A stretch of 64,000 nt of DNA from Gemmatimonadaceae bacterium (GTDB taxonomy: Bacteria > Gemmatimonadota > Gemmatimonadetes > Gemmatimonadales > Gemmatimonadaceae): positions 62,001 to 126,000 of the forward strand of contig JBBJNV010000008.1 of the NCBI GenBank assembly GCA_037721215.1, in the 5' to 3' direction. The notes beneath the pieces are model-generated. The model saw only the letters and a list, made by a program, of their open reading frames with translations. It made no database searches and was not told the origin of the DNA. The position numbers were made by a program, and so were the translations under genes. How positions within the stretch are numbered: position 1 is the stretch's first letter; the number at the start of each line of letters is the position of its first letter. This document shows positions 57,878-64,000 of the stretch, piece by piece.

Positions 57878-57942
57878 CAGATTGTCTCCGGAGGAATATC
57901 AGTTGAGTTACTGGTTTGTCTCTCGAACCTTATCTTACGGCA

Positions 57943-58665
57943 ATGCATCGTGATAACGCTGTTCTACTGTTGAGCGGCGGGCTCGACTCCTCGACATTGC
58001 TCGCGCTCGCGACGAGCCAGGGATATCTGGTTCACGCCTTGAGCTTTCGCTACGGCCAGCGGCACAGCGCCGAAATCGACGCATCGAAGAAGATCGCGGC
58101 GCGGTTCGAGGTAGTCGAGCACATCGTCTCTGAAATCGACCTCCGCATCTTCGGTGGGTCTGCGCTGACTTCGGATATTGCAGTGCCGAGGGATCGCGCG
58201 GTTGACGATAGCGAGGACATCCCGATCACCTACGTGCCCGCCCGCAACACGATTTTCCTCTCCGTTGCTCTGGCGTGGGCTGAAGTTCTGGGAGCACGCG
58301 ACATTTTTATCGGCGTCAACGCCCTTGACTACAGCGGTTATCCAGACTGTCGTCCCGAGTTCATCGACGCGTTTCAGACGATGGCGCGACTTGCGACGCG
58401 CGCCGGAGTAGAGGGGGCAGGCGACCTCCGGATTCGAACACCCCTGATGGACATGTCCAAAGCAGACATCATCAGGCTCGGCCTCGAGCTCGGAGTCGAT
58501 TACGGAATGACGGTGAGCTGTTATGATCCGGCTCCCCTCGGGCACGCCTGCGGACATTGCGATGCGTGCCAGCTGCGAAGACGCGGGTTCGAGGAGGCCG
58601 GGGCGGCGGATCCAGCCCAGCATACTTCCCGAACTTCCCCCGGTCGAGCGGGCCGGGGCCGCTGA
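57943..58665 (+). CDS. queC: 7-cyano-7-deazaguanine synthase (preQ0 synthase)
   Basis: About 240 residues. It converts 7-carboxy-7-deazaguanine to preQ0 using ATP and ammonia. The P-loop-like motif is [29 protein letters not shown] and [17 protein letters not shown] are family signatures. The zinc cysteines are in VSCYDP and [18 protein letters not shown] 57943 is preferred; a frame back to 57916 adds nine residues. The C-terminal about 24 residues ([12 protein letters not shown]...) extend beyond the family. Its stop shares one base with queE (TGATG). Confidence 0.94.
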
Positions 58666-59300
58666 TGGCGTACACGGTAAAGGAAATTTTCTACACGCTA
58701 CAGGGCGAAGGGGCCAATGCAGGGCGAGCAGCGGTGTTTTGCCGTTTTTCGGGATGCAACCTGTGGAACGGGCGGGAGGAAGACAGAGAGCGCGCAGTCT
58801 GCAAATTCTGCGATACCGATTTTGTCGGCGTCGGTCCCGATGGCGGCAGGTTTCAGACGGCCGAGTCACTTGCCGGGCGGATTGTGCTGGCCTGGCGCGG
58901 CAATGATGCCAGCGGCCGACGCTTCGTCGTGTGCACCGGCGGCGAGCCACTGCTGCAGGTAGACGGTGCACTCATCGATTCAATTCACGGCGCGGGATTC
59001 GAGGTTGCGGTCGAGACCAATGGATCCAGACTCGCGCCCGCCGGCGTTGACTGGATCTGCGTCAGTCCGAAAGCCGGTGCGTCGCTGGTCCAGACATCAG
59101 GGGACGAGCTCAAGCTCGTCTTTCCTCAACCCGGGGCGATGCCCTCCGACCTGGAGCATCTGAAGTTTCGCCACTATTTCCTTCAACCGATGGATGGCCC
59201 ACTGGCGGCGGAGAACACTCGCGCTGCCGTCGATTACTGCATGCGGCACCCTCAATGGCGATTGAGCCTGCAGACCCACAAGCAACTCGGGATTCGATGA
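58665..59300 (+). CDS. queE: 7-carboxy-7-deazaguanine synthase
   Basis: 211 residues, radical SAM enzyme of queuosine synthesis that contracts the CPH4 ring. TLQGEGANAGRAAVFCRFSGC opens it. The iron-sulfur cysteines are the QueE-type C-x14-C-x2-C: SGCNLW to VCKFCDTDF. The glycine-rich VVCTGGEPLLQ follows, and VETNGSRLAPAG and CVSPKAGASL complete the barrel. It is coupled to queC. The queD and queF partners are not in the window. The 182 bases after it (59301-59482) hold no gene. Confidence 0.93.
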   Translation: MAYTVKEIFYTLQGEGANAGRAAVFCRFSGCNLWNGREEDRERAVCKFCDTDFVGVGPDGGRFQTAESLAGRIVLAWRGNDASGRRFVVCTGGEPLLQVDGALIDSIHGAGFEVAVETNGSRLAPAGVDWICVSPKAGASLVQTSGDELKLVFPQPGAMPSDLEHLKFRHYFLQPMDGPLAAENTRAAVDYCMRHPQWRLSLQTHKQLGIR

Positions 59301-59482: not shown

Positions 59483-60205
59483 ATGAAGAGCAAGTTCCCC
59501 GGCGGCAACCGTACTGGCGCACTCCTGGTCGCCGCCGTAATTGTGGCAAGTGTCGCGGGGCTCGGCGCACTGCTCGCGTCCGACCACCAGGATACGCCTG
59601 AAGTCGAGCTGAACCCGCGCATGGACATCAGTGATGTCTATGCGTTCCCTGGGTCCAGTCCCGACCGCATTGTGCTCGCAGTCACGACGTCTTCCCCGAT
59701 TGGCGGCCAGACGGCGTCCTTCGATCCGAATCTGTTGTATCAGATCAAGGTGGATAACACGGGCGATGCAAAGGAAGACCTCGTCTTTCAGATAACGTTC
59801 GACGGAGCGGCTGGCAGCAGCCAGCAAGTGCTCGTCCGCGGTCCTGTCGCCCCCGCAGCTACTGGTACGATGGCTACACTCGTCACTACCGGCACAACGA
59901 TCGAAGGCGCTGTCAACGCGTCACTGGGCTCTGCGACAGGAGTGCAGGTATTTGCGGGATTGCGCGGCGATCCGTTCTTCATCGACCTCGAGCAGTTCTT
60001 CAAAATCCTGCCGGACCGGCGCCCTTCGACAGGGGGATTGTCCAGTCCGCTCACGCAAACCGCGACCGGCTTCCGCAACCCGGGCGTCGATCTGCTGGCT
60101 CCGTTCAATGCGCTCGCAATTGTCATCGAGCTTCCAAAGTCGCAACTCCTCCCTTCTACCGCCGCCGACGCAAAGTTCGGTGTGTGGGCAACAGTCAGCC
60201 GGTAA
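59483..60205 (+). CDS. DUF4331-type exported protein, N-terminal half
   Basis: 240 residues with a signal/TM segment (GALLVAAVIVASVAGLGALL). Then the DUF4331 opening: ASDHQDTPEVELNPRMDI, DVYAFPGSSPDRIVLAV, YQIKVDNTGDAKEDLVFQI, FAGLRGDPFFIDLEQFFKI, and an ending KFGVWATVSR. Full-length DUF4331 proteins continue with a second half; here the chain stops, and the second half is the next gene. A ribosome site (GGAGAAG) precedes the ATG. Function unknown; the family sits in the envelope. Confidence 0.82.
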   Translation: MKSKFPGGNRTGALLVAAVIVASVAGLGALLASDHQDTPEVELNPRMDISDVYAFPGSSPDRIVLAVTTSSPIGGQTASFDPNLLYQIKVDNTGDAKEDLVFQITFDGAAGSSQQVLVRGPVAPAATGTMATLVTTGTTIEGAVNASLGSATGVQVFAGLRGDPFFIDLEQFFKILPDRRPSTGGLSSPLTQTATGFRNPGVDLLAPFNALAIVIELPKSQLLPSTAADAKFGVWATVSR

Positions 60206-60212
60206 CAGAGTC

Positions 60213-60821
60213 ATGAATTTCCGCAAATCTGCCCGTTGCGCGGCCCCGTCGCGGTTGGTCGCTGGCATCGCCGCACTCTCGCTGGTTCTCGCCGTAGTCG
60301 CCTGCAACGATGAGGGTGATGAGATCCTGGGACCGGGAACGAATCGAACTTATACCCAGATCGAAAGGCTTGGAAATCCGCTGGTGTCAGAAGTTTTTTT
60401 CCCCAAGCGCGACCACGGCCTGCATAACACCAAAGGGCCCGAGTCCGATGGCACATCGATGTCGTTAGGCGGCACTGACGTTCCGGGTCACATCCGATCG
60501 TTCGTCGCGTCTTTCGGTCGCAGCGAAAGAATCATCACAACGCTCGGTACCGTGCTGTCACCTGACATGCTGATGGTTTTTCCAAACCGCGCCACTACCA
60601 ACCCGGCAACGGTCGGCTGGCTGACGTGGGCGCTCGCTCCAGGTGTGGGCTACGGTGGACGAAGGCTCAACGATGACGTTGTCGACATAGCATTGAGCGC
60701 AGTCTTCGGAAACGTACTGGACAACACACAGCCGGTTCTTCCAAATCTCACGTCCGATAATGTGCCGGCCAGTGTAAGAACATTCTCGACGACATTCCCG
60801 TACCTCGGAGCGCCAAGGTAA
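60213..60821 (+). CDS. DUF4331-type lipoprotein, C-terminal half
   Basis: 202 residues with its own lipoprotein signal (SLVLAVVACNDEGD). The text after it, TYTQIERLGNPLVSEVFF and RDHGLHNTKGPESDGTSM, resumes DUF4331 where the upstream protein ended. It continues through DMLMVFPNRATT and RRLNDDVVDIALSAVFGN to TTFPYLGAPR. Because it has a separate signal peptide and start (ATG 60213, 8 nt after the previous stop), this is a split into two proteins, not a frameshift. The two halves probably assemble in the periplasm or outer membrane. Confidence 0.82.
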   Translation: MNFRKSARCAAPSRLVAGIAALSLVLAVVACNDEGDEILGPGTNRTYTQIERLGNPLVSEVFFPKRDHGLHNTKGPESDGTSMSLGGTDVPGHIRSFVASFGRSERIITTLGTVLSPDMLMVFPNRATTNPATVGWLTWALAPGVGYGGRRLNDDVVDIALSAVFGNVLDNTQPVLPNLTSDNVPASVRTFSTTFPYLGAPR

Positions 60822-60858
60822 CTGTGGGCGGCAAATCGCCTTTCGCGACCGAATTGCG

Positions 60859-62151
60859 GTGAGCCTCAGCGCCCGGGTTGCCATGATCGTTCTTGTTCTG
60901 CCCGCCGCGATTGCGGGTGTATGGGCAATGAGCGCCGGTCGTGTGGACCACGCGCGCAGCGAAAATGCCGGTTCTGCCGAACGGGACGCGCAGATCGCGG
61001 CGTGGAGCAGCGCCCTCGCGGCCGATTCCCTGAGTGCTATTGCTCTTGGCCAGCTGGGCGCGCTCCATCTGCAGAAAGCGAGAGAAACCGGCGACCAATC
61101 AAGCTACGTCCGTGCTGAGGAGTACGCACGGAGGTCTATTTCGCTGCGCAAGACACGTAACGGGTCGAGCTTCGTCACGCTTGGCGCTGCGCTCGTAGCG
61201 CGTCACGAGTTCGCAGCTGCGGACTCTGTCATCAGCGAGCTGGTCAGTCGCGAACCGGATATTCCTCAATACCTGGCGCTGCTTGGCGAAATCAAACTCG
61301 AACGCGGCGAGTACGATGCAGCCCGGATCGCATTCAGCTCAGTGAATGGTGTGCGTACGCACCTCTCCGTGGCACCTCGCCTCTCGCGGTGGATGGAGCT
61401 GACGGGAAATTCGCGAGGAGCCCGGGATCTGCTGCGTCAGGCGCTAGCCGAGGTCGAACGACGCCCGGATCTTCCGCGCGAACAGGCGGCCTGGTTTTAT
61501 TTGCGCGCTGGCGACCTGGATATGCAACATGGGCGACTCCGCGGCGCCCGAAAAACGTTCGAGGCCGGGCTCGAGCGAAATCCCGGTGATCATCGGCTGC
61601 TTTCAGCGATGTCGCGACTCGAAGCCGCAAACGGAAATCCGCGAATGGCAATCCTTTTCGGTGAGCGCGCGGTTGCAATCCGACCCGATCTTCTCACGCT
61701 GGGAGCGCTTGGCAACGCCTATGCCGTTGCGGGGGACACCGCAATGTCGAGTCAGTATTTCAAGGCACTTGAAGCGACAGTTTCGGCAAGCGGTGCCGCG
61801 CATGACAGGGCGTCGAGTCTGATGCTGCTCGACCGGAATGCCCGCGTGCGCGAGGTGCTGGCAGTCGCCCGCACCGACCTCTTAGCGCGGCACGACATTT
61901 ACGGTTACGACATCCTTGCGTGGGCGTTGCACAAGTCCGGCCGGAATATCGAAGCTAGGGTAGCAATGGCGCAGGCACTGCGCCTGGGCACCGATGACGC
62001 GACGCTTAGCTACCACGCTGGCGTAATCGAACGTGCACTCGGGAATGACGCGCGCGCGCGATTACACTTCGAACGCGCGCTGGCAATCAACCCGCGGTTC
62101 GATAAGCGGCCCCAGTCAGTGAGAGCGATGCTCGACTCGCTTAAAAGCTGA
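60859..62151 (+). CDS. Exported/anchored TPR protein
   Basis: 430 residues from a GTG (VSLSARVAMIVLVLPAAIAG). The N-terminal hydrophobic segment is a signal anchor. TPR-type helical repeats cover about 50-425 (LAADSLSAIALGQLGALHLQ, YDAARIAFSSVNGVRTHLS, LRGARKTFEAGLERNPGDHR, NDARARLHFERALAINPRFD). It is in the same array as the DUF4331 pair before it and is coupled to HupE after it (stop/start TGATG). It is probably a scaffold in the envelope; the partner is unknown. Confidence 0.78.
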   Translation: MSLSARVAMIVLVLPAAIAGVWAMSAGRVDHARSENAGSAERDAQIAAWSSALAADSLSAIALGQLGALHLQKARETGDQSSYVRAEEYARRSISLRKTRNGSSFVTLGAALVARHEFAAADSVISELVSREPDIPQYLALLGEIKLERGEYDAARIAFSSVNGVRTHLSVAPRLSRWMELTGNSRGARDLLRQALAEVERRPDLPREQAAWFYLRAGDLDMQHGRLRGARKTFEAGLERNPGDHRLLSAMSRLEAANGNPRMAILFGERAVAIRPDLLTLGALGNAYAVAGDTAMSSQYFKALEATVSASGAAHDRASSLMLLDRNARVREVLAVARTDLLARHDIYGYDILAWALHKSGRNIEARVAMAQALRLGTDDATLSYHAGVIERALGNDARARLHFERALAINPRFDKRPQSVRAMLDSLKS

Positions 62152-62756
62152 TGTCCGAGTTTCTGTCATTCGTAGAGCTCGGGTTTCGCCACATCACGGA
62201 TCTGGCGGCGATGGATCATATCCTGTTTCTGCTGGCGCTTGCCGCTATATACAGGCCCCGCGACTGGCGAAGCGCGTTATGGGTAATAACGGCGTTCACC
62301 GTTGGACACTCGTTAACGCTCGCTCTCGCCGTGACCGGCGCAATCAAGCTTCCGACTGACGTTATCGAGTTCCTCATTCCGGTGACGATCGTCGCGACAT
62401 GTATCGAGAACATCGTCGTTCGCAACCGGGAGAGCGCGTTCTGGCATGGTCGCTATCGTCCAGTGTTTGCGGGAGTGTTTGGCCTCGTGCATGGGGCCGG
62501 CTTCGCTAATTATCTGCGCGACCTGTTTTCTGACCGGATTGCTTTACCGCTATTCGGATTCAACGTCGGGATCGAGCTTGGGCAGATCGTCGTGCTCGCA
62601 ATTGCCGCGATGATTTTTGTCTCTGCGGACTGGGTGATTTCGAGGCTGCTCAGTTCCGCGACGTCCGCGGCCGGCCTGAGACTTCGTGTGCTGCTCGTTT
62701 CCAGCGCGGTGATGGTGGTTGCGGTGGAGTGGGCTGTAGAACGACGTCCATGGTAG
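62151..62756 (+). CDS. HupE/UreJ-like membrane protein
   Basis: 201 residues with about six TM helices. The family opening LGFRHITDLAAMDHILFLLALA (the HupE/UreJ_2 H-x-D-H-x-L-F motif) is clear, and AFTVGHSLTLALAVTG and VFGLVHGAGFAN with further His follow. HupE proteins are thought to be nickel or other metal permeases (studied for hydrogenase and urease). Which metal, if any, is not readable. ATG 62151 shares a base with the TPR stop. The next gene starts within its last codons. Confidence 0.85.
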   Translation: MSEFLSFVELGFRHITDLAAMDHILFLLALAAIYRPRDWRSALWVITAFTVGHSLTLALAVTGAIKLPTDVIEFLIPVTIVATCIENIVVRNRESAFWHGRYRPVFAGVFGLVHGAGFANYLRDLFSDRIALPLFGFNVGIELGQIVVLAIAAMIFVSADWVISRLLSSATSAAGLRLRVLLVSSAVMVVAVEWAVERRPW

Positions 62757-63286
62757 AAGCAACTCTGCGCAAAGCCCGAATCGGGACATTGTTTCTGCAG
62801 GCGGCCCTTGCGATCTCCGCGGTTTTTCTGCCCTCTCGTGTCAGTGCACACCCAATCCATACGAGCCTGGCCGAGGTGGTTCATGAGGCGTCGAGTCGCA
62901 CAGTTCGCATATCTCTGCGGGTTTTCGTCGACGATTACACGACGGCGTCGCTCGCACACGTGCGGTGGCTTGCGTCAAGACGGCCTCCCAGGACAGCACC
63001 TGACGGGCAATCGCCGTTCGTGACGTATGCTCAGGCCGCCTTCAGAGTCACAGATGCCACGGGACGCCGGATTCCTCTCACCTCATGCGGTGGCAGGCGT
63101 AACGGAGACCTGATGTGGTTGTGCCTGAAAGGTTCGGCACCGCGAGGACTGTCAGGATTGTCAATCACCAGTCACGTTCTGTTCGACATGTACCGGGATC
63201 AGATCAACATCGTCCAGGCGGCTTACGGAGGGCGAAAGACCAGCCTGCTGTTCACACGCGGCGATGGCGCCCGGAAACTTCCCTGA
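62750..63286 (+). CDS. DUF6702-like exported protein
   Basis: About 178 residues. It has a signal peptide (LFLQAALAISAVFLPSRVSA) and a mature part starting with HPIHTSLAEVVHEASSRTVR, a His-rich start typical of DUF6702 proteins. ISLRVFVDDYTTASLAHVR and LTSCGGRRNGDLMWLC (two cysteines) and VLFDMYRDQINIVQAAY follow. It is coupled to HupE (7-nt overlap). The role is unknown; HupE and DUF6702 often travel together. The name is from pattern only. Confidence 0.7.
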   Translation: MVEATLRKARIGTLFLQAALAISAVFLPSRVSAHPIHTSLAEVVHEASSRTVRISLRVFVDDYTTASLAHVRWLASRRPPRTAPDGQSPFVTYAQAAFRVTDATGRRIPLTSCGGRRNGDLMWLCLKGSAPRGLSGLSITSHVLFDMYRDQINIVQAAYGGRKTSLLFTRGDGARKLP

Positions 63287-63397
63287 CGCGGCCCGCGGAT
63301 AAGCTCTCGTGCTGACTGCCTGCGCCGCGATTTATATTGGCTCCCATATTATTCGGACCGTTCACCGGGTAACCCCCGCTCGAACACGCGGGAATGA

Positions 63398-64000
63398 GTG
63401 TTGACGGGCCGGTTCAATGGTGCGAGGCTGATCGCACTGTTGCTTGCGCTGGCCCCGGGCGCCGTAGCGAGAGAGGCGCGTTCCCAGGATTCCGTGGTGA
63501 GGAAGCTGACACCAGTGGTCGTGACAGTTACTCGAACCGGTGCCACCAGCGTGCTCCTGGCTCCATTCGCGCTGACGGTTGTCACTCCGGATAGCACTCG
63601 TCCCGGCCAGCGTCACGTCGCCGTCGACGAGATGCTATCGCTGGTGCCCGGACTTTCGGTGAACAACCGCAACAATCCGTCACAGGATCCGAGACTCGCC
63701 ATCCGCGGCTTCGGTGCGCGGTCGGCGTTTGGAATACGTGGGGTCCGTGTACTCCGGGATGGCATGCCGCTGACGCTTCCCGACGGTCAGACCCCCCTCG
63801 ACTACCTGAGCCTTGAATCCGTCGGTCGCGTCGAGGTCATCCGCGGATCGGCTTCAGCGCTCTACGGGAATGCATCCGGTGGTGTGATCGATATCAAATC
63901 GGAAGCCCCCCCGGCGTCGGCGTTCGAGGCAGAAGCACGGCACTGGGCCGGCAGCAATCAATTCAAGCGCTCGGTGCTGGCAGCCGCCGGGTCCGCCGGC
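63398..64000 (+). CDS. TonB-dependent receptor (partial, runs off right edge)
   Basis: 201 codons are visible, from a GTG at 63398 (VLTGRFNGARLIALLLALAP). A signal peptide is followed by LTPVVVTVTRTG (TonB-box-like), then the plug domain: LVPGLSVNNRNNPSQDPRLA, IRGFGARSAFGIRGVRV, LRDGMPLTLPDGQTPLDY and RVEVIRGSASALYGNASGG. The plug is of the classical siderophore/cobalamin/metal receptor type rather than the Oar type. It follows the DUF4331/HupE/DUF6702 cassette in the same direction, 111 nt away, so a shared metal role is possible (inference). Confidence 0.88.
   Translation, partial: MLTGRFNGARLIALLLALAPGAVAREARSQDSVVRKLTPVVVTVTRTGATSVLLAPFALTVVTPDSTRPGQRHVAVDEMLSLVPGLSVNNRNNPSQDPRLAIRGFGARSAFGIRGVRVLRDGMPLTLPDGQTPLDYLSLESVGRVEVIRGSASALYGNASGGVIDIKSEAPPASAFEAEARHWAGSNQFKRSVLAAAGSAG

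Follow-up and report, generated by a model that had tools for sequence, protein, structure and literature searches.

The genes DUF4331-N, DUF4331-C, TPR, HupE_UreJ_2 and DUF6702, which occupy the + strand at 59483-63286 of a 64,000-nucleotide stretch from a Gemmatimonadaceae bacterium (the window; positions 62001-126000 of contig C8 in a draft genome of 3.5 Mb), probably form an operon for the periplasmic capture and import of a scarce divalent transition metal, with nickel or cobalt favoured and copper possible. As judged from sequence, the operon appears to be a variant of HupE/anglerase metal uptake with two new elements: DUF4331 as a family with a predicted N-terminal metal site, and the DUF4331-TPR (tetratricopeptide repeat) pair as a partner common to unrelated permeases. 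Genes were assigned with Pfam profiles and by sequence (Table 1), and the successive junctions are a 7-nucleotide gap, a 37-nucleotide gap, a 1-nucleotide overlap (TGATG), a 7-nucleotide overlap and a 111-nucleotide gap to a gene for a TonB receptor. An earlier reading of the same DNA (the sequence-only reading) had given these six genes, their order and strand, the split DUF4331 and the spacing to the receptor, all of which were borne out by sequence and Pfam. It had also suggested an envelope system for the uptake of a metal or a cofactor. Good support for the metal-uptake core, in which DUF4331 and TPR proteins are periplasmic, comes from the conservation of the genes, the swapping of Ni/Co permease partners between loci, the resemblance of DUF6702 to a HupE-associated metal-binding domain and a nearly invariant N-terminal X-X-His in DUF4331; cofactor uptake, however, is not supported.

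Among 200 Gemmatimonadota genomes sampled, DUF4331 was found in 31, DUF6702 in 61 and HupE_UreJ_2 in 123. The full five-gene order, whose conservation the sequence-only reading had put forward as a check on its proposal, is kept on one strand in the window and at 13 other loci of the phylum (L024-L031, L033, L034, L035, L037, L038), and across two contigs of one further genome; further copies were seen in a collection of named genomes. This order recurs far beyond chance. On a tree of 64 DUF4331 N-halves, the five-gene label requires about 9 changes, compared to 22 after shuffling. The operon is probably old, with the HupE-DUF6702 pair lost repeatedly, although the direction of change is one that we infer.

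At the start of the DUF4331 N-half, signal cleavage was judged by the -3/-1 rule for signal peptidase I. By this rule, the predicted mature N-terminus of the protein in the window is S-D-H-Q-D, from codon 33 (59579). In the alignment of N-halves (A1), conservation begins abruptly at S33, residues D34 and H35 are invariant, and H35, directly after the hydrophobic segment, is the only invariant histidine. A first set of 94 distinct sequences had SDH in 90 and ADH in 4, with A, G or S at -1 and a small or aliphatic residue at -3, and 94/94 fit the signal peptidase I rule; the motif itself was searched for in this set, with no selection on residues -1 and -3. Of 157 distinct DUF4331 sequences, 143 passed an automatic check for X-X-His and 14 failed, and leaving out the fragment L128 gave a set of 156. 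On reading, 11 of the 14 failures show the motif (SDHDDG, SSHMDAP and ANHREAP types, and L246, which starts M-SDH), and the true exceptions are two: L112 (SDA) and the second copy in L122. X-X-His is therefore present at the predicted mature N-terminus of 154/156 sequences, from six phyla.

Five DUF4331 proteins have no signal peptide: four start with M-SHH, one of these via a GTG first codon, and L246 with M-SDH. The proteins of these loci (L244, L245, L260, L268 and L246) are probably cytosolic. Methionine aminopeptidase normally takes off Met ahead of Ser, and would therefore also leave X-X-His in these members. This independent route to the same mature end is the strongest argument for a functional free N-terminus with His3. 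Amino-terminal copper- and nickel-binding (ATCUN) motifs, X-X-His, bind both metals, Cu(II) more tightly than Ni(II) (PMC7701195), and DUF4331 appears to bind metal via its freshly processed N-terminus in this way. As in albumin and other ATCUN proteins (PMC7701195), the free N-terminus is predicted to be X-X-His, and in DUF4331 it is predicted cleavage that supplies it; unlike in those proteins, the predicted motif is kept across a whole bacterial family and would be exposed by signal peptidase.

The two DUF4331 halves match opposite ends of a single PF14224 profile of 421 positions, up to position 236 and from position 250. Each half has an export signal of its own, and that of the C-half ends in a lipobox (LAVVA before C) whose Cys is kept in at least 90% of 20 relatives. 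DUF4331 is split likewise in a second copy in the same genome and throughout the phylum. A frameshift as the origin of the split was ruled out by this conservation and by the separate export signals; because the C-half carries its own lipoprotein signal, we regard the halves as two genes. The second copy is a DUF4331N-DUF4331C-TPR module that contains no permease (contig C5, L008:8120-10948) and immediately precedes an rtcB-like RNA ligase gene. A model of the fused DUF4331 has a beta-sandwich first and then a mixed C-terminal half (predicted local distance difference test, pLDDT, 79; predicted template-modelling score, pTM, 0.84). No informative match to this model was found among PDB folds, and antibody-like beta-sandwich matches with Z of ~6 were set aside as merely a common arrangement. 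Searching the PDB by sequence returned no relatives of DUF4331, HupE or DUF6702, and no paper in the literature searched names DUF4331 or PF14224.

Residues H14, D22, H23, H53, H114 and E142 are invariant in the HupE alignment. The operon subfamily has H-x7-DH (RHITDLAAMDH) and not the H-x5-DH expected in the first helix, which fused HupE relatives retain; as read from the alignment, H-x7-DH is a spacing variant that retains all three residues, His, Asp and His. The DUF6702 signal peptide ends in VSA before HPIHTS, which places the predicted mature His1 at 62849. H1, H4, D29 and N120 are invariant in 34 DUF6702 proteins from these operons and near relatives. Ala directly precedes the His in about half of the relatives, and His1 is therefore clear in those and in the window, and less clear in the others. 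A model of the DUF6702 protein made with AlphaFold2 (pLDDT 94) has the Ang-like immunoglobulin (Ig) fold with an N-terminal His. Its best PDB match was 9GCE, the copper-bound Ang-1 domain of a HupE/UreJ-2 protein (Foldseek E 8e-6), on which residues 1-145 of the model superpose with residues 1-155 (Z 10.8, 2.7 A, 116 residues) and the His1 ends are aligned; the next matches were zinc-binding ZrgA and PA4063.

Ang domains bind Cu/Ni and have been proposed to feed the HupE channel, and a DUF6702 protein from a different species has pM affinity for Ni and nM affinity for Co and Cu (PMC12537917). Given this published binding and the fold match to Ang-1, HupE and DUF6702 are best read as the two-gene counterpart of a fused anglerase, in which DUF6702 would be the detached periplasmic metal-binding domain of HupE. 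As in the anglerases Ang-1 and Ang-2 (PMC12537917), a HupE_UreJ_2 protein is combined with a periplasmic Ig-like domain starting with His. Unlike in the anglerases, the two are not one polypeptide but the products of separate, overlapping genes, H-x7-DH replaces H-x5-DH, and the pair is linked to DUF4331, which the text of the anglerase paper (PMC12537917) does not mention, and to TPR. The PaDUF6702 'metal sequesterase' (PMC12537917) shares PF20420 and a signal peptide ending before His1. Its proposed site is His1/His28/His32, whereas in our alignment, outside which this Pseudomonas sequence lies, position 29 is an invariant Asp with no conserved His there; the gene context differs as well. 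The HupE/UreJ nickel permeases (PF13795/PF04955) share the family and conserved His/Asp/Glu residues, but the operon contains no hydrogenase or urease genes and the motif spacing differs. HupE and DUF6702 are separated by ~2.2 kb in many Gemmatimonadota genomes (for example G039 C1:3481531-3484680, G065 C7:34450-37700), which leaves space for a gene between them, and M1 peptidases have been reported next to DUF6702 (PMC12537917). The TPR protein has a hydrophobic N-terminus in 111/139 relatives.

Loci outside the phylum came from scanning named genomes and from searching, with PF14224, the phyla to which a Nostoc and a Rhodanobacteraceae genome belong. DUF4331 was found in Cyanobacteria (12/146 genomes sampled), Pseudomonadota (47/297), Armatimonadota, Eremiobacterota and Verrucomicrobiota, mostly as one gene, and split in Armatimonadota. 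A TPR protein of the same kind usually adjoins it, and the next gene often encodes a Ni/Co-type permease whose family varies between loci. These partners include NicO fused to a domain that starts HPLGNFTINHY after an Ala (Nostoc, Phormidesmis, Capsulimonas and several Pseudomonadota), HupE_UreJ_2 fused to an N-terminal-His domain (L116, L229-L231, L237, L257 and others) and a second NicO protein, of NiCoT type (L119). At one Armatimonadetes locus (L123:10726-13459), the genes after DUF4331-DUF4331-TPR encode a CbiM-PDGLE-CbiQ fusion and an ATP-binding cassette ATPase, an energy-coupling-factor-type Ni/Co importer. A HupE or NicO gene lies within ~14 kb at 28/60 DUF4331 loci outside the phylum, compared to a chance expectation of ~1%, which is our own estimate from one or two such genes per genome. 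In most of the permeases linked to DUF4331, the predicted signal peptide ends directly before a His, though 4 or 5 of the 28 automatic matches fell inside the protein and are uninformative.

The sequence-only reading had treated the TonB receptor as part of the system and had suggested a search for Fur-, Zur- or NikR-like sites upstream of 59483 and 63398. The receptor proved to be an optional neighbour of the operon: 15/31 related loci have one within 6 kb, and these are of two types. The PqqU-like type found in the window is present at 6 of those loci, L038 included. It is completed just outside the window (704 residues, L007:5399-7513), and its best family over the full length is NCBIfam PqqU (NF041535), with 347 bits. 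We rejected it as PqqU, since this score is far under the equivalog cut-off of 1200 bits. Just a minority of related operons carry this receptor type. The second type, whose plug contains an HGHGHG stretch, is present at 9 loci (L025, L026, L027, L037, L095, L101, L105, L110, L114) and scored above the cut-off of no NCBIfam family. Relatives of the HGHGHG-type receptor also adjoin DUF4331 in Pseudomonadota (L214, L226, L227, L239). Control by NikR or Fur is not supported. A sigma factor of the extracytoplasmic function (ECF) class, paired with an RskA-type anti-sigma factor, recurs beside the operon at 11/31 related loci, though no such pair lies near the operon in the window.

From these data we propose the following sequence of events. 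The two DUF4331 halves would reassemble in the periplasm, one of them tethered to a membrane as a lipoprotein, and the N-half may bind metal by its mature X-X-His, either as the first scavenger in line or as a carrier. The TPR protein, with its membrane anchor, could serve as a scaffold that links DUF4331 to the permease complex. DUF6702 would take the ion with the His1 generated by signal peptidase and hand it to the HupE-type protein, the presumed inner-membrane permease, which would import it. The TonB receptor, where present, may bring in chelated metal.

Several observations weigh against this proposal. Some DUF4331-TPR loci have no adjacent permease, including the second copy in this genome. 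No NiCo or cobalamin riboswitch was found at the 19 loci searched, NikR boxes occur at chance level with none near the operon, and the window contains no Fur box (Zur was not scanned). Exporters also occur in the NicO family, and the direction of transport is therefore not fixed. The need for nickel or cobalt is likewise hard to locate. As the sequence-only reading had it, no hydrogenase gene lies near the operon, but genes for a [NiFe]-hydrogenase are present elsewhere in the same genome, on contig C26 (L144:5596-12359). In the phylum this enzyme is not enriched with DUF4331 (8/31 genomes with DUF4331 vs 51/169 others). We also considered demand by urease, nickel superoxide dismutase or B12 ring synthesis, and beyond single cases it was not found in the phylum: urease is nearly absent, the dismutase is present in 2/200 genomes and B12 ring synthesis in 0/200.

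Given the rarity of nickel and B12 enzymes in the phylum, copper has to be considered. DUF4331 and DUF6702 might take up periplasmic Cu(II), with the HupE-type permease importing copper or the operon supplying cuproenzymes. The preference of ATCUN sites for Cu(II) over Ni(II), roughly six orders of magnitude (PMC7701195), is a further point against a nickel system, and anglerase domains fused to HupE bind copper best (PMC12537917). However, the partner permeases elsewhere belong to Ni/Co families, including NiCoT-type NicO and CbiM-CbiQ, the characterised DUF6702 prefers nickel, and the window's genome encodes a [NiFe]-hydrogenase. We consider a copper system unlikely, though a serious contender. 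Judged from sequence features, the permease families point to nickel or cobalt and the N-terminal motifs to copper or nickel; we would place nickel first and copper second, and leave this ranking open.

A role in metal defence seems improbable. In such a role, ECF sigma control would govern periplasmic proteins that bind excess metal, and the permease would export the metal or just buffer it. The ECF sigma/RskA pairs that recur beside the genes are typical of envelope-stress control, exporters are found in the NicO family as mentioned, and a HupE gene of Sphingobium is induced by excess nickel (PMC5557971). On the other hand, about half of the loci have a TonB receptor nearby, which suggests uptake, and no recurrent efflux pump is found among the neighbours. 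HupE, NiCoT and CbiM-CbiQ proteins are importers where they have been characterised, cyanobacterial ones included. Still less probable is a structural X-X-His (an N-terminal cap or a processing signal) in a DUF4331-TPR pair with a non-metal envelope role and merely co-operonic with a metal permease: the plain beta-sandwich of the DUF4331 model, its lack of an informative PDB match and the loci that have no permease would fit, but a processing signal would not explain His3 in members that have no signal peptide, and the pair is repeatedly associated with unrelated Ni/Co-type permeases in several phyla.

The surroundings of the operon are as follows. The genes queC-queE lie directly upstream (window 57916-59300), and this arrangement is also kept in L064, L065 and L109, the closest relatives of the window copy. 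Downstream, the receptor gene is followed by a MarR-family gene and then, just past the window, by two adjacent genes for secreted ferritin-like (Ferritin_2) proteins (L007:9732-11360).

Table 1. Location of the operon genes and receptor in the window, and of the [NiFe]-hydrogenase genes elsewhere in the same genome.
Feature	Location	Strand	Evidence
DUF4331 N-terminal half, 240 aa, signal peptide	59483..60205	+	PF14224, 115 bits, N-terminal part of profile
Codons for Ser-Asp-His, predicted mature N-terminal X-X-His, ATCUN-type	59579..59587	+	sequence
DUF4331 C-terminal half, predicted lipoprotein	60213..60821	+	PF14224 profile 250-421, 69 bits
TPR protein, N-terminal hydrophobic anchor or signal	60859..62151	+	Pfam TPR families
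HupE/UreJ_2-type permease without fused periplasmic domain	62151..62756	+	PF13795, 153 bits (cut-off 24.5)
DUF6702 protein, signal peptide	62750..63286	+	PF20420, 85 bits (cut-off 24)
TonB-dependent receptor, start	63398..64000	+	Pfam Plug and barrel
[NiFe]-hydrogenase large subunit	L144:7573-9471		RACGVCGGVH and DPCMPC motifs
[NiFe]-hydrogenase small subunit	L144:11037-12359		
[NiFe]-hydrogenase maturation protease	L144:5596-6252		

DUF4331 is widespread, and the link to metal permeases together with the processed motif provides a concrete, testable function for the family and for its TPR partner, while DUF6702 is tied to HupE as a two-part anglerase. More tentatively, and with slightly less than even confidence, we suggest that DUF4331 is a large family of metal carriers whose site is made by processing of the protein's own start, with X-X-His uncovered by signal peptidase or, where a signal peptide is lacking, by methionine aminopeptidase. 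In this view the DUF4331-TPR pair, in many cases controlled by an ECF sigma factor, would hand nickel, cobalt or copper to any one of several unrelated permeases, which start in turn with a His1 exposed by signal peptidase. If this is true, the metal site would have been overlooked because only the mature N-terminus reveals it.

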